A DNA stretch of 26,396 nucleotides from a virus. Of this stretch, positions 14,197 to 26,287 are shown piece by piece. Each line of letters opens with the position of its first letter. The stretch's first letter is position 1. The notes under the pieces were generated by a model that saw nothing but the letters and a program-made list of their open reading frames with translations, did not search any database and had not been told where the DNA came from. A program made the translations under genes and the position numbers. Location: positions 1-26,396 of the IMG/VR virus record IMGVR_UViG_3300033155_001586, one strand, 5' to 3'.

Positions 14197-14799
14197 TTAT
14201 AGCCTCGCTACGAGCCAGTCGTCGGCCTCAACACGTTTAAGATTGGACTCTTGGCCGTTAAAGGTTCGAGTGTCTCTTAGATGACTCACTAGTCTTCGCT
14301 CCGCAAGCTTAGCTAGTGTTGTTGATTGAGTGATTGGATAGGCAAGATCTGCCGCAAGCATAAAAGCTAAGGTCTCAGCGAAACGCTTGTCAAACTTTTC
14401 TTCACTCACTAATTTTATATATTTTATATTTACCGTCGAAGCATTCGTCACTAAAACTCTCTCACTAGTGAGCGGATTGGTTTCGATGTCCCAAGGGATC
14501 TCTCCAATTGAAGGAGACAAGTTAAGGTCAGTAGATAAAACACGAAGATTATCAGAAGGAATAAGGAAAGATTTCTCATACTCATAAGAAGGCACGTAAG
14601 TACTCTCCGAGAGAGCGACTCTAGTTGTTGCAAAATTCCACGGATGGCTACGCAAAAGATCGTCCCTAAGCTTAGGGTACTGCTCATTACAAAGACGCGC
14701 ACGCTTGTTGTCCTCATTCAAAGCGTTGATACGATCAGCCCCTAACTTAATAAGGGCTGAATTACAAATTGAAACTGCACTCGTTACACTTAAAGGCAC
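14197..14799 (-). CDS. Tail tubular protein A (gp11-like adaptor/gatekeeper)
   Basis: 200 aa, equal in size to T7 gp11 (196 aa). The N-terminus is characteristic: a helix with ICNSALIKLGADRINAL (11-27), then ARLCNEQYPKLRDDLLRSHPWNFA (33-56), a pattern found throughout this family. The middle is a beta region (YEKSFLIPSDNLRVL) and the C-terminal helices include FAETLAFMLAADLAYPIT. It forms the dodecameric ring between portal and nozzle that keeps DNA in the filled head. The start is GTG with AGGAG 6-7 bases upstream. It ends one base before the nozzle gene begins, as expected for proteins made in fixed ratio. Confidence 0.92.
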   Translation of the reverse strand: MPLSVTSAVSICNSALIKLGADRINALNEDNKRARLCNEQYPKLRDDLLRSHPWNFATTRVALSESTYVPSYEYEKSFLIPSDNLRVLSTDLNLSPSIGEIPWDIETNPLTSERVLVTNASTVNIKYIKLVSEEKFDKRFAETLAFMLAADLAYPITQSTTLAKLAERRLVSHLRDTRTFNGQESNLKRVEADDWLVARL

Positions 14800-14808
14800 C
14801 TAAGCTCC

Positions 14809-15270
14809 TTAATCTAAAGAGTATTCGATCTCTACGGAAATCTTCTTACCAGTACCAGTAGTAGTAGCAGTCACAGCGTGAAGTTGGATCTGAGTGATAG
14901 CTCCGAACTCTTTCGCGTAACCAGCCTTACCGGCAGTGTCAGTCATAGCTTCAATCTTAGCCGCTACGAAAGTCATAGTGTTAATGATACCGTCTTGAGA
15001 AATAGGCTCAACAGCGCTAGCCGCCCAACCTAGATCAAAGTCAGTCGCTCCACCGCCACACGCGCCGTCGACAAACATCTTGGCGTTGTAGAGCTTTGCT
15101 CCCGAAGGGATCTTCATCAGTTTAACAATGTCACCCGCGCCGAGCTCAGCCGCTAGGGTGATCTCGTCGTACATAACTCGTCGTCGTCCGTTGTTTTCGT
15201 TTACCTTAAGCTTTACAGAAGGAACGGTAACATCAGCTTTTGTGGCGTTTACGCCATATAAAGTAGCCAT
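14809..15270 (-). CDS. Probable capsid decoration / head-associated structural protein
   Basis: 153 aa, beta-rich, Gly/Ala/Thr-rich, with no enzymatic motifs. The N-terminus (MATLYGVNATKADV) and a central IPSGAKLYNAKMFVDG block with later GWAASAVEP look like structural proteins that follow the capsid gene in many podophages and siphophages. Its position between the major capsid and tail adaptor genes, and a strong AAGGAG ribosome site, suggest an abundant virion protein, probably decorating the head. Codon usage and base content match the capsid gene. I cannot exclude a connector role. Function is from context only. Confidence 0.7.
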   Translation of the reverse strand: MATLYGVNATKADVTVPSVKLKVNENNGRRRVMYDEITLAAELGAGDIVKLMKIPSGAKLYNAKMFVDGACGGGATDFDLGWAASAVEPISQDGIINTMTFVAAKIEAMTDTAGKAGYAKEFGAITQIQLHAVTATTTGTGKKISVEIEYSLD

Positions 15271-19636: not shown

Positions 19637-20956
19637 CTAACCTCCAAAGATGTCATACCCGTAATCAGACGCCTGAGTCTGCTTGTGGGCGTTCGTAAAA
19701 TCAGACCTAACTGTATCATCAGTAGACCCCATTGCCATAGTCCTAAATGCGTCGGCTCCGTTACTGGACCAGTCGTGAAGTGGCTTGTTAGTCCAGATCT
19801 TATTCTTAGCGTCCCACTTCTTCTGGTAGTTCCTCAATGCTCGTATGCCTCGGTCACATCGCTGTCGGTCAAAATGGCATTTCGGCAAGAGCAGCCTAGA
19901 AGCGTGTATTCCGTCGGCCACGGCTTGCCGTGGAAGCACACGACCTCTGAGGCCAAGCTTTTGGAAACTCTGTATACGCGTAACACCCGTTGAGAGATCC
20001 CTCGCGCCCGCGTCGTGCGGGAAAAGGTGGTCACGATATACATACCCTCGCTTTTTCTGAAGCTCCTTGACATAGTATTCGATCCCCTCTCCAGAGTTTT
20101 CGATGTAGTCTATAAGCCTGTACTGAGTACGGAGCTGCTGCAAGAACCAAATGGCCGTCGTGTCGTTTATCCCTAAATCCCAAAACGTATCCACCTGCAA
20201 GGCCCTGTCATGAGCTAAATCACAAATACGTCCCTCGTCCTCAGCCTGATCTATCAGTTTGCCATAGTAAGCCCCCACAAGAGCCGCCGAGAAAGAACAC
20301 TCAAACTCTTGCTCGAATTCTTCCTCTGTCATCTCACGCTTAGCCGCAGCAAGCTCAGAAGGCAAAATTATATTCGTCTCCGACGCCTTAAGAAGGACCT
20401 GGAACCAATCATGTCCCTGGTTTTGAAGTGCCACCTGATGTACATCGTAAAAATGGTTTTGACCCTTCGGAGTGCCGATAAAAATAGCCCAACCAAGACG
20501 ATCCGAAAGCGCAGGGCGAATAACCTGGGACCATATGGTAGGGTCGCACTCCGCATATTCGTCCTGGATAACGCCGTCAAGGTATATTCCACGAACTGAA
20601 CCTGGGTTCTCCGCTCCAAGTAACATAAATCTAATTCTATCACCTCTGTCTGGACGTGGTATATCCACTCTAAGCTCTTGCTCATTCGTTTGAACCCCCG
20701 GTATAGACCTTGTGAAATCCTTAAACATATCCCACGCAACACGCTTTGCTTGGGTAAACGTAGGAGCTATATAAGCATACTGAGGATTGCGCCTGGGATT
20801 ACGTAAGCCCTTAGATATTGTTTCATTTACCGAAAACACAGTTTTTCCGAAACGTCTGTGACAGACAAGTACGTTAAACCTTTTTAGTTTTTTATGAAGA
20901 TAGGCTTGATGCTTTCTTGGTATGTACCCTGTAGAGACCCTGTCCACTGATAACAC
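19637..20956 (-). CDS. terL: Terminase large subunit (TerL)
   Basis: A 439-aa packaging ATPase/nuclease. Walker A is CHRRFGKT (32-39), with the adenine/arginine-rich lead-in typical of terminases. Walker B and the catalytic acid are in YLDGVIQDEYAE (125-136; D132, E133). Coupling motif III is GTPKG (161-165). The RNase H-like nuclease has WDLGINDTTAIW (259-270; D260), the PHDAGARD segment (313-320) and the final DWSSNGADAFRTMA (395-408; D402). All key residues are present and the length is usual for short terminases of this group. The start is GTG at 20956, sharing one base with the upstream stop (TAGTG). Unusually, its partner TerS lies about 4.4 kb upstream rather than next door. Confidence 0.95.
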   Translation of the reverse strand: MLSVDRVSTGYIPRKHQAYLHKKLKRFNVLVCHRRFGKTVFSVNETISKGLRNPRRNPQYAYIAPTFTQAKRVAWDMFKDFTRSIPGVQTNEQELRVDIPRPDRGDRIRFMLLGAENPGSVRGIYLDGVIQDEYAECDPTIWSQVIRPALSDRLGWAIFIGTPKGQNHFYDVHQVALQNQGHDWFQVLLKASETNIILPSELAAAKREMTEEEFEQEFECSFSAALVGAYYGKLIDQAEDEGRICDLAHDRALQVDTFWDLGINDTTAIWFLQQLRTQYRLIDYIENSGEGIEYYVKELQKKRGYVYRDHLFPHDAGARDLSTGVTRIQSFQKLGLRGRVLPRQAVADGIHASRLLLPKCHFDRQRCDRGIRALRNYQKKWDAKNKIWTNKPLHDWSSNGADAFRTMAMGSTDDTVRSDFTNAHKQTQASDYGYDIFGG

Positions 20957-21267
20957 TAGCTAAGCGCCCCCGAATGGCGCAAAGCTCTTACTATATCCTT
21001 CACTGTAGATTGAACCTCTGGAGTCGTTAGGTTTTCTGATAAATCTAAATCCAATAGACTTTGTATGGCTATATCCGAAGCTGACTGAGTCGACGGATCA
21101 TGAGTGTCTATGACAGATTGAATAGCTGAGGCATCAGGAGCCGCTGCATCTATCACTATAAGACGAGAGCGGCTCAGCCTTATATCGATGAAACCTATGT
21201 CATTTATCTCAGAGATAAGCACTTTGTTGTTTATAACTATAGCTGAAATATTAAAAGTGACACTCAT
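20956..21267 (-). CDS. Small hypothetical structural-type protein (103 aa)
   Basis: No assigned family. The N-terminal half is beta-like and hydrophobic (FNISAIVINNKVLISEINDIGFIDIRL); the C-terminal half is helical with a DASAIQSVIDTHDP segment (about 50-63), reminiscent of short helices in phage structural proteins. The ATG has an excellent AGGAGGAGG 5 bases upstream and overlaps the 64-aa gene stop (ATGA). Its own stop overlaps the TerL GTG. A sampled line of this gene (21181-21240) is about 28% GC, well below TerL, so it may share origin with the AT-rich YkgJ-type gene two genes upstream. Function unknown. Confidence 0.65.
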   Translation of the reverse strand: MSVTFNISAIVINNKVLISEINDIGFIDIRLSRSRLIVIDAAAPDASAIQSVIDTHDPSTQSASDIAIQSLLDLDLSENLTTPEVQSTVKDIVRALRHSGALS

Positions 21268-21458
21268 GTAACCTCCTCCTCTAATATAACAAACATACTT
21301 GTAGTAGCTAAAGCATGATCAGGACAGTCCACGTCCGGATCTAAAACCGTCTGATCTTCATAAATATAATGCCAGCCCTTATTATGACCAAAATCACCAG
21401 AGACAGAGTTTGTGTCCTCCTCATGACATTTTTTTCTAGTCTTATATGTTGTTGCCAT
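21264..21458 (-). CDS. Small hypothetical protein (64 aa)
   Basis: No family recognised. It is acidic, with two cysteines and four histidines (KKCHEED near the start, GHNKGWHYIY in the middle, DCPDHALATT later). The spacing does not form an evident zinc finger. No membrane segment is present. It begins inside the last 17 bases of the YkgJ-type gene, with GGAGAG upstream, and ends in an ATGA overlap with the 103-aa gene. Tight coupling on both sides argues that it is a true gene despite its size. The Cys/His content next to a metal-binding cysteine-cluster protein is suggestive but may be chance. Confidence 0.6.
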   Translation of the reverse strand: MATTYKTRKKCHEEDTNSVSGDFGHNKGWHYIYEDQTVLDPDVDCPDHALATTSMFVILEEEVT

Positions 21459-22098
21459 TTATTCTCTCCATTGCTTCAGGTAAAGTACTTTGTTTTTTTA
21501 CTGCGTTAAAATATGCTGCTGAAACTACCTCAGCCTTATTAGTATAAATAAGTTCTCTATTAGCACCAGTCTCACAAAGCTTAGGGTCAGACTTAGAAAC
21601 TAAAAGCCTACAAACTGAAGGCCTATCATTATAAACAGAGCACTCACCATCATGAGCTAAAAACATGCAACGGGCATTGTGATTTTTTAAGTCAGGCTTA
21701 TTTATAATAGTCCTGCCCCTTAAAAGCTCAGCCTCCTCGTCAGTTACTAATATCTTTTGCTTGCAACAACCAGAACAACCTTTCTTACACTTAACTTTCT
21801 CCCACTCGTTTACATCATGGAACTTACTTAACTGTAACTCAGAATCTATTATATTATGCACAGTCATGGCTCTATCTTTGCCAGGCCTTATTTTTCTTAT
21901 GTTTAAGCCAACAGTTATTATATTTTCATAAGTACTAAGCCAAACACTTTTATATCTATCTACATCTCTTTTCTTAATACCTTTAAGCATAACTAAAGTT
22001 TTAAGAGACAAAGCCAAAGGCCTCATATCTACTTTATCAAGAACAGAATCATCTCCCGTCTCCATAAAATGAATCAATCCTTTCCTTATTTTATCCAC
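21442..22098 (-). CDS. YkgJ-type cysteine-cluster (CxxxCxxCC) protein
   Basis: 218 aa. Residues 1-95 are helical, basic and of no recognised family. Residues 104-112 carry C-K-K-G-C-S-G-C-C, followed by C144, the pattern DGECSVYNDRPSVCR (150-164; C153, C163) and C175. This is the signature of the CxxCxxCC zinc/iron-chelating family (PF03692: YkgJ, with some members called flagellin lysine methylase FliB). Most members are of unknown function and bind a metal or an Fe-S cluster. The gene starts with GTG right after the fibre-like gene's stop and has a weak ribosome site. Four sampled 60-base lines have 30-38% GC, against about 50% for lines in neighbouring genes, suggesting separate acquisition. 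Its role in a virion operon is unknown; protein modification or metal handling are possibilities. Confidence 0.8.
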   Translation of the reverse strand: MDKIRKGLIHFMETGDDSVLDKVDMRPLALSLKTLVMLKGIKKRDVDRYKSVWLSTYENIITVGLNIRKIRPGKDRAMTVHNIIDSELQLSKFHDVNEWEKVKCKKGCSGCCKQKILVTDEEAELLRGRTIINKPDLKNHNARCMFLAHDGECSVYNDRPSVCRLLVSKSDPKLCETGANRELIYTNKAEVVSAAYFNAVKKQSTLPEAMERINGNNI

Positions 22099-22929
22099 TT
22101 AAAAAACCATGTTTAAAAAATCAACCATCACTTTTTCTTTTCCACTATCCGTCGAAGAATCCCACTTAGCTTGTACCTCGTAAATTGCCTCCGCTGAATC
22201 TTGATTACTTACCGTACCAAGATCAATAAGAACCGAAGTAGTATTACTCTGCCCCGTAACCTCAGCAATAGCCAAAGCGTTAGTTAAATCAAAAAGCCTT
22301 AGCGAAAAATCAGCAAGGTCAGACTCCTTATGTGCGATCATTTTTACAGCAGTAAGTGTTCTGGTCGCTGTTCCTAGACCCCTAACTGCGGCAAGCACTT
22401 CATAAGTCGTGAGCTTTGTATCCTCACTACCAAAACTTAAGTTAATCTCTGGAGTGTCAGGATTCACCCACTTAAAACCAATAGATTCCGCAGAGTCGGC
22501 CGTGAGCACCTGGTCATCTGTTCCAATAGGAAGTCTAGCATCTACAGTCGTAAACCCGAATATATCGCCCTTAGTAGTTAGCGGAGATCCAGATGCAGGA
22601 GTCTCCCACTTAAGCCCCGTGACCTCTCCCGAGGCAGCCACAATGTGCTGACCGTTAGAGCCAACACCAAGAGCCGTCTCAGTAGTTGAATAAGTAAATA
22701 TATCACCCTTAGTTGATAGAGGCGTTGATCCCGCAAGCGAATTCCACGTCAAGGGGGAGTCGTCTTTTAAAACATAAAATGTGTCGTCGTCGAGCTGGTG
22801 AGCAAACTTGCCAATATCAGCCGGCAAGAGAGAGGCCGCAAGACGAGCCGTCGCGTCGGCGTACTCGAAAGATATAGGACTATGTATGCCGTCTGAGACA
22901 ACCATGCTTTTATGAAAAACGTTAGCCAT
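22099..22929 (-). CDS. Fibre-like structural protein with tandem TKGDIF repeats
   Basis: 276 aa. The centre contains two 46-residue tandem repeats (70-110 and 116-157) of the form PL(S/T)TKGDIF, then ALGVG or RLPIG, then QH/QVL, and G(L/F)KW, a beta-repeat widely seen in phage tail and head fibres. The N-terminal region (MANVFHKSMVVSDGIHSP, then DDTFYVLKDDSP) resembles fibre attachment segments. The C-terminal 120 residues look like a compact beta-rich knob (FSLRLFDLTNALAI). The ATG has AGGTG upstream. It lies in the block between TerS and TerL rather than with the main tail fibre, so it may be a second appendage such as a head fibre. The fibre character is well supported; its place on the virion is not. 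Confidence 0.75.
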   Translation of the reverse strand: MANVFHKSMVVSDGIHSPISFEYADATARLAASLLPADIGKFAHQLDDDTFYVLKDDSPLTWNSLAGSTPLSTKGDIFTYSTTETALGVGSNGQHIVAASGEVTGLKWETPASGSPLTTKGDIFGFTTVDARLPIGTDDQVLTADSAESIGFKWVNPDTPEINLSFGSEDTKLTTYEVLAAVRGLGTATRTLTAVKMIAHKESDLADFSLRLFDLTNALAIAEVTGQSNTTSVLIDLGTVSNQDSAEAIYEVQAKWDSSTDSGKEKVMVDFLNMVF

Positions 22930-23186
22930 TAAATCACCTGCTCTAAAGAGTTAGAATAAATAAAACATAAGTTATCCGTGAGCATCACGTCGCCTAAGCC
23001 CTGCGTAAACAAGTGCCACGCCCCACTCTGATAGCGCCAAATATTTAAGTTAGACTCATAGTAGAGGTCGTTGTCAACGCCTGTATGCGTAGGCTCAGCG
23101 GTACCACTAGAAATATGGATACCGCTATCACCTAAAGTTATACCGTTACTGGAGACCTCGTAAGATCTGTCCCGCTCTATTGCCAT
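22929..23186 (-). CDS. Small fibre-associated hypothetical protein (85 aa)
   Basis: No family recognised. The middle has a GITLGDSGIHISSGTAEPTHTG segment and then DLYYESNLNIWRYQSGAWHLF. The last pattern (Y, W, W, with GD following) resembles short modules in phage fibres that present a displayed value or chaperone-like knob. I place the start at ATG 23186, where it overlaps the 387-aa gene's stop (TAATG), in preference to an in-frame TTG at 23207 that lacks a ribosome site. The nearest GGAGG is 14 bases upstream of the ATG, so coupling probably matters. It overlaps the next gene by one base. A structural role is inferred from its two fibre-like neighbours. Confidence 0.62.
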   Translation of the reverse strand: MAIERDRSYEVSSNGITLGDSGIHISSGTAEPTHTGVDNDLYYESNLNIWRYQSGAWHLFTQGLGDVMLTDNLCFIYSNSLEQVI

Positions 23187-24349
23187 TAAATGTCTGTACG
23201 CCTCCAAGAAAAAGTCGACGAAAGTGACGCCGTCACAGATAACTGCATGGTCTGAGAACCGCCCGCACCATTTAGAATGACCGAAAAAGTAGGAGGCGAA
23301 CCGCCACCAAGCTTAAGCTTCGTGTGAACACTGTCGTCAGCGCTTGAAGCGTCAGCAGAAGCCGTGCCGTCGTGCATGCCCGTGACCTTTACAAACCTAA
23401 CATTCGCTGGAGTAGCCTCGTCAAATACATGGACCTCCCACTCCGACATTTTTATGCTGTCAACAAGGACAGAATCTAAAACCGTCGCCGTTGTAATGCC
23501 CGTAGTCTGACCACTAGTGGCCACAGACAAAGCTTCGACAAAAGTTTCAAGATCCTGTAATGCCGCGTGAGTCGTCTGCGAGTCTGAAATAGTTGTGCCC
23601 GTAAACGTCCCGTGGTCAGTCGAACCCTGAGACTCTCCCGAAAGAGTCGTAAGATCTAACTGGTTACCGTCAAGCTTCTGTATAGCGCTCTCTACAGTGT
23701 CAGCAGTAGAGACCGTGCCGTTAGCGGCAGCGTAGCCAGAAGAAAGGTTAATGCCTGTAGCAAAGTCCCAGTCAATATCGCCCATCTTAATAGCGTCAGT
23801 GCCGTTAAAGTGAACAATAGCTTGGTTCTCCTGAGAACCGTCAGAGTCAGGTAAGTAGTTCGCACAAATAAAGTTGTCGTCAGCAGCCAAAGCAGGGCTT
23901 GCTGCCGCAAAAGTAACACTAGGAGCCGATATAACCGTGACCTCCCAGAGAGCCTCAGTACCGCCCACACCGCCCAATACAAGGTCGCCCACGGTAAAGT
24001 CAGCAGCTACCATAGTGGTGCCTTCATCGTCCGAGAAAGGACTGGACACTAGGTCCCTAGCTCCCGCCGTGATCGCATCGCCAGTGGCTGCACGAAGTGA
24101 TTTAAACGTCTGGGCGTTAACCTCTGACGTTCTCGCCATTCTAGACCAGTCAGCAGCAGCGCCAGCGTTTGCAAACTTCATGTAGAAATCGCCGTTATCT
24201 TGTAAGTAAGACGATCCAATGGCCGAGCCGTCTTCTATGCCAGCGTCCCCGCCAGGCACTCCTGATCCCGAAATTAAACGAGGACCTGAGTCCGCGTTAA
24301 GTTGGGTTATCTCAAATCCTAATTCCGCTTTAAATGGTACTCGTGACAT
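23186..24349 (-). CDS. Fibre-like structural protein (387 aa)
   Basis: Acidic, Thr/Ser/Ala/Gly-rich and beta-prone. The N-terminus (FKAELGFEI, then GPRLISGSGVPGG and SSYLQDNGDFYMKFAN) resembles head- or tail-fibre proteins of marine podophages, where a short display module includes YLQ and W. The middle holds two related stalk units: TADTVESAIQKLDGNQLDL and SQTTHAALQDLETFVEAL, with a shared A(I/L)Q(K/D)L core, and a GTFTGTTISD step between. The C-terminal region has PANVRFVKVTGMHDGTAS and a GGSPPTFSVILNGAGGS segment. The ATG is preceded by GGAGGAAACTAAA, a strong site. It overlaps the following 85-aa gene by one base. It is probably a trimeric appendage protein; no enzymatic motif is visible. 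Confidence 0.7.
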   Translation of the reverse strand: MSRVPFKAELGFEITQLNADSGPRLISGSGVPGGDAGIEDGSAIGSSYLQDNGDFYMKFANAGAAADWSRMARTSEVNAQTFKSLRAATGDAITAGARDLVSSPFSDDEGTTMVAADFTVGDLVLGGVGGTEALWEVTVISAPSVTFAAASPALAADDNFICANYLPDSDGSQENQAIVHFNGTDAIKMGDIDWDFATGINLSSGYAAANGTVSTADTVESAIQKLDGNQLDLTTLSGESQGSTDHGTFTGTTISDSQTTHAALQDLETFVEALSVATSGQTTGITTATVLDSVLVDSIKMSEWEVHVFDEATPANVRFVKVTGMHDGTASADASSADDSVHTKLKLGGGSPPTFSVILNGAGGSQTMQLSVTASLSSTFSWRRTDI

Positions 24350-24350
24350 T

Positions 24351-24710
24351 TTAGTTTCCTCCCTGAAGTAATCTTGTCGTGTTCACTGTGATAGTGAAGA
24401 CCTCATTGTTCGTGATGGATACACGAAAGTCACTACCTAAGATACTGGGCAGGACCGTTAAGTTCATTTTGCCCACTTTCTCTGAGACCGAGTCAGTAAG
24501 CGTGGCCGTCGTGAGGCCCGTCCTAGTTACTGAGAGGGTAAATGATTTTGTCTTAGTCAATGAGGCGTCGTGGGTTTCTATTCTGTAGATGGCGGAGTGG
24601 AAGGTTGTGCGAGGGATCGTATCTACCTCGACTGTGGTCGAGGACGTTATCGACTTCGTTGACAGTCTCGTCCAGGGAGCCGGGGTGTTTGCCGAAGTTA
24701 CACCCGCCAC
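24351..24710 (-). CDS. Small beta-rich hypothetical protein (119 aa)
   Basis: No family recognised. It is Thr/Ser-rich and strand-rich throughout (SITSSTTVEVDTIP, FTLSVTRTGLTTATLTDSVSEKV, VFTITVNTTRLL), without cysteine or charge clusters, like a small beta-sandwich virion protein. The start is GTG, overlapping the 133-aa gene's stop (TAGTG), with GAGGAG about 9 bases upstream. The 387-aa gene begins one base after its end. It is the third of three consecutive small beta proteins after TerS, which suggests an assembly of coat, connector or fibre-base components, but the sequence gives no specific role. Confidence 0.65.
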   Translation of the reverse strand: MAGVTSANTPAPWTRLSTKSITSSTTVEVDTIPRTTFHSAIYRIETHDASLTKTKSFTLSVTRTGLTTATLTDSVSEKVGKMNLTVLPSILGSDFRVSITNNEVFTITVNTTRLLQGGN

Positions 24711-25111
24711 TACGCTAGCTCCTCAACATCTAAGGGAAGAGCGCCCGTTGCACCTGGCTCAAGCTTTGCGTAAATAATGATAGAGTCTGAAATGCCGTAA
24801 AAGGCCGAGCCCGTGTTTACAACCGTAGAACCGGAGTAGCCCGCAGGGAGGGTGGTTGAGATATAATTTAGTTTTATCTGCCAACCCGTGTAGTTGTAAA
24901 TGTTTATTGTGTTCCTGCCTGCCTGTGGGACGGCAGGGAGAGGTGTCCAAGTGGCCGCGCTTAGTGTAACCTCTGTAAATACGCCACCGATGGTTAAGCC
25001 GGAAGGTGTGAAAGATCCCGTGACAACACCTGCGATCTGTACTTCGTGGTCACCAGAAGTTATATTCTTTTTTATGACCGTCCCAAGGGACGCTAACATT
25101 CCCTTAATCAT
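24710..25111 (-). CDS. Small beta-rich hypothetical structural protein (133 aa)
   Basis: Function unknown. The N-terminus is a short amphipathic helix (MIKGMLASLGTVIKK). It is followed by strands rich in G, T, V and I (SGLTIGGVFTEVTLSAATWTPLP, then GRNTINIYNYTGWQIKLNY) and a C-terminal SDSIIIYAKLEPGATG. The NTINIYNYTGWQI-to-IIIYAKLE pattern resembles small virion proteins with a jelly-roll or beta-sandwich core. It is joined to the upstream gene by an ATGA overlap and to the downstream gene by TAGTG, with AGGAG before its ATG. It was probably acquired or inherited as a unit with the flanking 121- and 119-aa genes. Confidence 0.67.
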   Translation of the reverse strand: MIKGMLASLGTVIKKNITSGDHEVQIAGVVTGSFTPSGLTIGGVFTEVTLSAATWTPLPAVPQAGRNTINIYNYTGWQIKLNYISTTLPAGYSGSTVVNTGSAFYGISDSIIIYAKLEPGATGALPLDVEELA

Positions 25112-25473
25112 TCAAATGGCTCCTGGTATTCAGTGTAAAATACAATAAGTTTATCGCCGGTGGTGATTCCGTTAAACCAAATGTCAGAGAGAAGTATGTA
25201 ACCGTCAAGAGCGCCAAAGTTATCGGCAGCGATCATAAACTGATCTACTGGACTAAATAAAGTATATCTATTTGTAGAGGTGGCTAGGTTTTCGTCCGTA
25301 GCGATGTACATCTTATCGGAAGAAGGCTCAAGTTGGATTGTTATCGACCTAGCTTTGATCGGCGGAAATGTAACTATCGGTCCGGTAGGGTAGAGCCTCT
25401 CCGGAGTGTTCGCTAGAGTTAGGGTCGGCTGCGGGACCAATGTCTTGAAGATCTGTTTCTGAGTTGATGCCAT
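25108..25473 (-). CDS. Small beta-rich structural-type protein overlapping TerS (121 aa)
   Basis: Residues 20-120 have the layout of a small phage structural protein: TPERLYPTG (23-31), AR-SITIQLEPSSDKMYIA, a serine/threonine loop, LFSPVDQFMIAADNFGALDG, then LSDIWFNGITTGDKLIVFYTEY. This 'displayed value' beta pattern occurs in many phage proteins of 110-125 aa with no assigned role. Its ATG at 25473 is weakly sited (AGAGA 7 bases upstream). Its first 41 codons overlap the TerS 3' end by 125 bases in another frame, including residues that appear to belong to the fold, so both frames seem to be used. It couples to the 133-aa gene by ATGA. Confidence 0.72.
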   Translation of the reverse strand: MASTQKQIFKTLVPQPTLTLANTPERLYPTGPIVTFPPIKARSITIQLEPSSDKMYIATDENLATSTNRYTLFSPVDQFMIAADNFGALDGYILLSDIWFNGITTGDKLIVFYTEYQEPFE

Positions 25474-26287
25474 CTGTTGTCTCTTTGGTGTCTATTTGTT
25501 TTATGTCTTCGTCAGCTATTAATAACGTGTGATCGTCGTTCGTGTGCTCCGGCGTTATGTCTTTTGGGTATTGAGTTGTTTGCGTTTCACTGTCCGGGAG
25601 AGGAACGCCCGTGTCAATAATTAACTGTAGTGGTGCCGAAGCGTCCCCTACGATCTTTGTCTGGTTACCAAAAGCCGATTGGTTTCCTTTCTCTGCGGCC
25701 CACTTGTAAGCGTCCATCTTTAGACGTGCTGCCGGGATCTCGTCCTTAGATAAGTGCTTAGAGCTGCCATCGTCGTTTTTTGGGTCCGCCGTGTCTATTA
25801 ACTTGTCGTGGTAGACGTGGGCGCGGTCCTGGAAAGCTAAGTTGATTGCCTTGTCGAAATCAGGGTAACTCCTCCTCCATCTCGCTATGGTGTTAAATGA
25901 AGGCAAGTCTAAGTCGACGTAATTTTTTGAAATTTGAGTGATCGTTTCGCCTTCGGCTATTTTTTGGCAAATTATGTCAGCAAGTTCTTCCGAGAAAGGA
26001 ACGGTGGGCGAAGGTAAGTGTTTTGTGTGGTCTAAGGTTTTATCTATATAGTACGTGGCTCCGTCTTTGTTTTTATATTCTGTGAATTTGTCTTTTTGTA
26101 AATCATAAGAGTCAGTTAGCGAGGATTGAATCTGTAAGACTTGGCCCGTTCTTTCTGAGACTATCTCTATTAAGTTATCCTTGTTTAGTCTTGCGAAAGT
26201 GTTGTCGTAGGTGCTTGCGGGTTTCTTTGTTGACGCGGCTGGGGTTAGGGCGGCTGGGGTTTTTATTGGGTCTGGGAGCTTTGTCAT
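25349..26287 (-). CDS. terS: Terminase small subunit (TerS)
   Basis: 312 aa. The DNA-recognition part is about 97-170: FSEELADIICQKIAEGETIT, then ISKNYVDLDLPSFNTIARWRRSYPDFDKAI, an HTH with the IA-x-W-x-x-x-x-PDF motif of phage terminase small subunits. It is followed by RAHVYHDKLIDTAD and by ARLKMDAYKWAAEKGN (187-202) to LQLIIDTGVPLPD (220-232), which usually closes such proteins. The first 95 residues (Pro/Thr/Lys-rich, then a YKNKDGATYYID segment) and the last 80 (acidic, disordered) are extra. It binds the packaging start site and hands DNA to TerL. The ATG has no good ribosome site, but no better start is seen. Its last 125 bases are shared with the next gene. Confidence 0.85.
   Translation of the reverse strand: MTKLPDPIKTPAALTPAASTKKPASTYDNTFARLNKDNLIEIVSERTGQVLQIQSSLTDSYDLQKDKFTEYKNKDGATYYIDKTLDHTKHLPSPTVPFSEELADIICQKIAEGETITQISKNYVDLDLPSFNTIARWRRSYPDFDKAINLAFQDRAHVYHDKLIDTADPKNDDGSSKHLSKDEIPAARLKMDAYKWAAEKGNQSAFGNQTKIVGDASAPLQLIIDTGVPLPDSETQTTQYPKDITPEHTNDDHTLLIADEDIKQIDTKETTDGINSETDLQDIGPAADPNSSEHSGEALPYRTDSYISADQS

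Follow-up and report, generated by a model that had tools for sequence, protein, structure and literature searches.

Proteins with a clustered cysteine motif of the PF03692 (YkgJ) type occur in cells and in phages, and the domain remains uncharacterised in both. A described protein with a related motif is FliB, the flagellin lysine methylase, in which a CX4CX3CC motif holds a [4Fe-4S] cluster required for flagellin methylation (PMC8598068). Among phages, ORF 123 of vibriophage R21Y is a PF03692-like protein that has already been annotated (PMC10671443). Our searches of the open literature turned up no work on the function of YkgJ proteins from phages, and open papers, which cannot show absence, yielded no description of a recurrence of PF03692 genes near the terminase.

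The stretch of DNA analyzed here, hereafter the window, is 26,396 nucleotides long and is a fragment (26.4 kb, IMG/VR) of a marine-type podovirus of the HTVC010P type. Along most of its length, its terminase large subunit (TerL) was 43-47% identical to those of HTVC010P-type Pelagibacter phages, and the gene order was as in that group, with portal, scaffold-like, capsid, tail tube A/B and acetyltransferase-like genes. The nearest TerL relatives among viral contigs were L002 (61%), L003 (57%) and L074 (55%). The features of the window considered in this study are as follows.

19637-20956, minus strand, terminase large subunit, TerL (PF03237, phrog_2)
20956-21267, minus strand, 103-aa ORF between the 64-aa ORF and TerL, 41.3% GC (no family recognised in Pfam or PHROGs)
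21264-21458, minus strand, 64-aa ORF, 38.5% GC, sharing 17 bp with the end of the YkgJ gene (no family recognised in Pfam or PHROGs)
21442-22098, minus strand, YkgJ/PF03692-type eight-cysteine protein of 218 aa (ORF; Pfam PF03692, E 3.8e-10)
21574-21789, minus strand, cysteine core of that protein, with C104, C108, C111, C112, C144, C153, C163 and C175 together with E122, R159 and R164 (invariant, 33 homologues)
21790-22098, minus strand, N-terminal region of that protein, about 103 residues, predicted to be mostly helical and common with Bacteriovoracia homologues (alignment A7 and AlphaFold2 model)
22099-22929, minus strand, fibre/tail-like repeat protein directly upstream of the YkgJ gene (phrog_32934, E 5e-19)
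20956-25349, minus strand, block of about 4.4 kb separating TerS and TerL, with fibre-like genes, the YkgJ gene and two small ORFs (tblastn of window proteins against L002-L006)
25349-26287, minus strand, terminase small subunit, TerS, of Sf6 type (PF20901, E 2e-20; phrog_1482)

A reading made from the sequence alone had assigned the gene at 21442-22098 to the YkgJ family, and the Pfam search bore this out, with a match over residues 103-167 that scored 40.8 bits against a curated cut-off of 23; matches of the protein in PHROGs were weak. The motif reads C104-KKG-C108-SG-C111-C112, that is CxxxCxxCC. All eight cysteines, as well as E122, R159 and R164, were unchanged across 33 aligned phage and cellular homologues (33/33 for the cysteines). 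The cysteine pattern is therefore present in relatives of the protein, and the candidate metal ligands are conserved. The AlphaFold2 model (mean pLDDT 76, pTM 0.71) was mostly helical outside the cysteine core. A PDB sequence search, a Foldseek search against the PDB and further structural alignment yielded no solved relative, and a search of BFVD gave two weak matches only, to phage proteins whose annotations read Fe-S oxidoreductase and zinc/iron-chelating.

The gene begins with a GTG that abuts the upstream stop codon (TAAGTG), and an alternative ATG at codon 12 is preceded by AGGAAAGGA; the N-terminal part may therefore comprise 92 residues rather than 103. The YkgJ gene follows the stop codon of the fibre-like gene without a gap and shares 17 bp with the ORF after it. 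It thus belongs to one compact operon with TerL, which agrees with the proposal that it is embedded in a tightly packed virion/packaging operon. Its placement between a fibre-like gene and TerL held on the upstream side, where the product of 22099-22929 showed 60% identity over 45 aa to minor tail proteins of Microbacterium phages, while two small AT-rich ORFs intervene before TerL.

With 34.7% GC and 28.3% GC3, the YkgJ gene had the lowest values among the 29 predicted genes of the window (z -3.2 for GC and z -2.4 for GC3), and only 0.4% of 657-bp stretches of the window were equally AT-rich. Its AT-rich, foreign look was thus confirmed. The flanking genes were richer in GC, as the sequence-only reading had proposed, but not about 50% throughout (45.6% in the fibre-like gene and 48.0% in TerL).

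In five close relatives with both genes (L002-L006), tblastn placed the TerS homologue only about 0.2-0.5 kb before TerL, and no PF03692 gene was found in any of 47 TerL-related records, many of them partial, including HTVC034P, HTVC010P and Venkman. We therefore rejected the YkgJ gene as a normal, routine component of HTVC010P-type phages. These results suggest that the gene is acquired cargo. The unrelated cyanophage Syn30, searched alongside those 47 records, gave a sub-threshold PF03692 match. The other ORFs of the 4.4-kb block had no tblastn match in the loci compared, and the block at 20956-25349 resembles an insertion or a second fibre module. No close homologue that would allow a selection analysis of the YkgJ gene was found.

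A first broad alignment was too diverse for scanning. Bacterial and archaeal genomes were scanned with a small alignment, and this gave 44 relatives. The best matches, which were nearly full-length, were chromosomal genes of Bacteriovoracia (L108-L111), with 29-32% identity over residues 25-215, the N-terminal region included. The part of about 103 residues that had earlier gone unrecognised is accordingly not unique to the window, as R76, A77, H81 and D85 are invariant in alignment A7. Unlike the window protein, the Bacteriovoracia homologues carry some 25 additional residues between the two groups of cysteines, and their neighbours look chromosomal, not phage-like. In a tree of 54 domains the window protein took a moderately supported position close to the Bacteriovoracia sequences (no starred clade). 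Phage PF03692 sequences were scattered across this tree at several positions, a pattern that suggests repeated exchange, with a single origin as a less likely alternative.

Annotated YkgJ proteins were also found on plasmids, with similarity to the window protein over the cysteine core. Some of their genes lie near Abi, uracil-DNA glycosylase or macro-domain genes; in a conjugative plasmid of P. aeruginosa (L093), the YkgJ gene directly precedes a uracil-DNA glycosylase gene. Additionally, near-identical YkgJ genes adjoining TonB-receptor-like genes were observed in three MAGs labelled as different phyla (L124, L130 and L132), and this near-identity across supposed phyla suggests mis-binning or mislabelling.

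Used as a single query, the window YkgJ protein had no match among phages at E <= 1 and none in viral contigs, and the PF03692 domain alone as a query gave weak phage matches only. Scans of viral contigs recovered PF03692 relatives of a long type and of a small type of about 105 aa, the latter with at least 150 members (L163-L241, IMG/VR). Ten phage members scanned against PHROGs gave weak matches at most. A common occurrence of the small type among cultured phages was rejected, since its L158 and L105 members had no tblastn match in 50,697 phage records. The view that a protein of this kind is not expected in such an operon proved too strong: related genes were present in at least 150 viral contigs, several of them in head/packaging operons.

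The positions of these genes varied. In several lineages, profile searches verified that the adjacent genes encode TerL and TerS. The order was TerS-YkgJ-TerL in L098; in L154 a TerS-like gene and two other ORFs preceded a YkgJ gene overlapping TerL by 8 bp; in L158 and L102 the YkgJ gene stood just after TerL; and in L200 it lay between TerS and a convergent TerL. The contig L155 (IMGVR_UViG_3300033144_004189) resembled the window in its succession of fibre-like genes, AT-rich YkgJ gene (35% GC against 42% GC), small ORFs and TerL, but it has another TerL type (phrog_38), and its YkgJ protein shares 35% identity over the cysteine core. In Caudoviricetes sp. vir524, a Methanomicrobiales virus (L088:3836-4192; BK063669.1, about 14479-14832), we observed an unannotated YkgJ-like ORF after a head-morphogenesis gene. 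T7-like contigs (L173, L185-L187, L195 and L199) recurrently carried TerL, then the thymidylate synthase gene ThyX, then YkgJ, and in one group the ThyX-YkgJ pair lay 1.1-1.6 kb downstream of TerL. At L105:7198-8306 and in its relatives L163-L192, a glycosyltransferase family 2 gene and a small YkgJ gene formed a conserved pair, some 6 kb upstream of TerL and often accompanied by an FkbM-like methyltransferase ORF.

A rule that the gene always stands next to TerL was rejected. In the largest small-type group about 6 kb separates TerL from the glycosyltransferase-YkgJ pair upstream of it, and several lineages have the gene far off: L180 near replication or repair genes, and L103, L099 and L106 at 20-110 kb from TerL. 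In an exploratory count, for which the lineages and the 2.5-kb threshold were hand-chosen after seeing the data and the null was uniform placement, the PF03692 gene lay within 2.5 kb of TerL in 9/20 hand-grouped viral lineages against 2.3 expected (P about 1e-4). With contigs of at least 15 kb only, the count was 8/19 against 1.9 expected; in these counts TerL was located with three PHROG models, contigs with no detected TerL were omitted, and many contigs are fragments. Together with the fibre-like neighbourhood of L155, this supports the suggestion that the vicinity of TerL or of fibre genes is a recurrent location for PF03692 genes.

Taken together, we consider it somewhat probable that the window carries an acquired PF03692 accessory gene, with an eight-cysteine putative metal centre, that lies in a cargo block between TerS and TerL and is translated with the late/virion genes. 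The YkgJ gene would have been acquired horizontally, presumably from the cellular gene pool, and would sit in a fibre-like cargo block inserted between TerS and TerL; we infer late expression from the operon packing. By analogy with the PF03692 family and with FliB, the most likely role of the eight invariant cysteines is to hold a metal centre, either an Fe-S cluster or zinc, and a zinc or purely structural metal site would be as compatible as an Fe-S site. During assembly the protein might help to modify or mature a late product (e.g., a fibre protein), or a host protein, in a metal-dependent step that we propose only tentatively. The occurrence of PF03692 genes far from virion genes (L180, L103, L099 and L106) indicates that a role in the virion would not be shared by all of them.

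Proximity to terminase and fibre genes favours modification or maturation of a late protein, or a metal-carrying part of the virion, and the variety of neighbours slightly favours host-directed cargo in a permissive slot. The modifying enzyme could be a FliB-like lysine methyltransferase, or a similar Fe-S-dependent enzyme, whose target would be a fibre protein, a capsid protein or a protein of the host surface. The sequence-only reading had raised this idea, and the clustered cysteine motif in common with the flagellin-methylating, [4Fe-4S]-binding FliB (PMC8598068) and the position directly downstream of a fibre-like gene, with a comparable neighbourhood in L155, speak for it. We regard this as improbable, given that the NCBIfam FliB model NF038110 had no match to the window protein at E <= 1, that the cysteine spacing differs (CX3CX2CC vs CX4CX3CC), that no SAM-binding domain was recognised in the protein with Pfam, and that many small relatives of only about 105 aa are essentially the cysteine domain alone. 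By the sequence tests available the window protein is not FliB, and apart from the cysteine motif that the two have in common, no connection with lysine methylation is supported.

A phage protein of this kind could also act as a metal-binding component of the virion, a zinc/iron carrier for delivery or storage in the particle, or a chaperone loading metal into a tail protein. The presence of iron in phage tails has been hypothesised ('Ferrojan Horse'), and the invariant cysteines and the virion operon position with adjoining fibre-like genes are consistent with such a role; we nevertheless think it unlikely, as packaging of the protein is putative and many relatives are not near tail genes. 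A better, though still minority, chance attaches to an accessory gene for host physiology (redox, metal homeostasis or counter-defence) that occupies a permissive slot by the terminase and has no virion role. The AT-rich island formed by the gene, the neighbours that vary across phages (glycosyltransferase, ThyX or a sulfotransferase-like ORF) and the plasmid relatives, some of them near Abi, uracil-DNA glycosylase or macro-domain genes, are in line with this explanation, and the proximity to TerL above uniform expectation in hand-grouped lineages speaks against it, though a permissive slot would also give that. A more far-reaching possibility, which we consider doubtful at present, is that the junction of terminase and fibre genes has repeatedly received a possibly Fe-S protein with eight cysteines because it performs a conserved and undescribed step of virion maturation or virion-protein modification. 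If true, this would reveal a widespread, overlooked class of late-gene metalloproteins that environmental viruses commonly carry and cultured viruses rarely do. Irrespective of the function, the recurrence of this uncharacterised domain beside the terminase in at least nine hand-grouped viral lineages provides a concrete set of loci for asking whether it takes part in building the virion or is cargo that occupies a permissive slot.

In comparison with known systems, the individual gene of the window is new, and the PF03692 domain is known and has earlier been annotated, but not characterised, in phages. The window protein shares with PF03692 proteins (CxxCxxCC / YkgJ family cysteine cluster proteins, UPF0153) the cysteine core and the CSVYxDRPxxCR signature, and it differs from the family generally in its location in a phage packaging/virion operon and in its helical N-terminal region, shared best with Bacteriovoracia. 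FliB likewise has a four-cysteine cluster in a PF03692-like motif (PMC8598068), with the motif at the N-terminus, whereas in the window protein it occupies residues 104-112, after about 103 residues. The cyanophage group phrog_9155 (e.g., Syn30 CPRG_00030) also has a PF03692-like domain in a phage genome, but the Syn30 copy scores under the Pfam cut-off and lies beside Dam methylase and helicase genes, not the terminase. The window is thus a clear case of a foreign, AT-rich PF03692 copy inside a fibre block that splits TerS from TerL.
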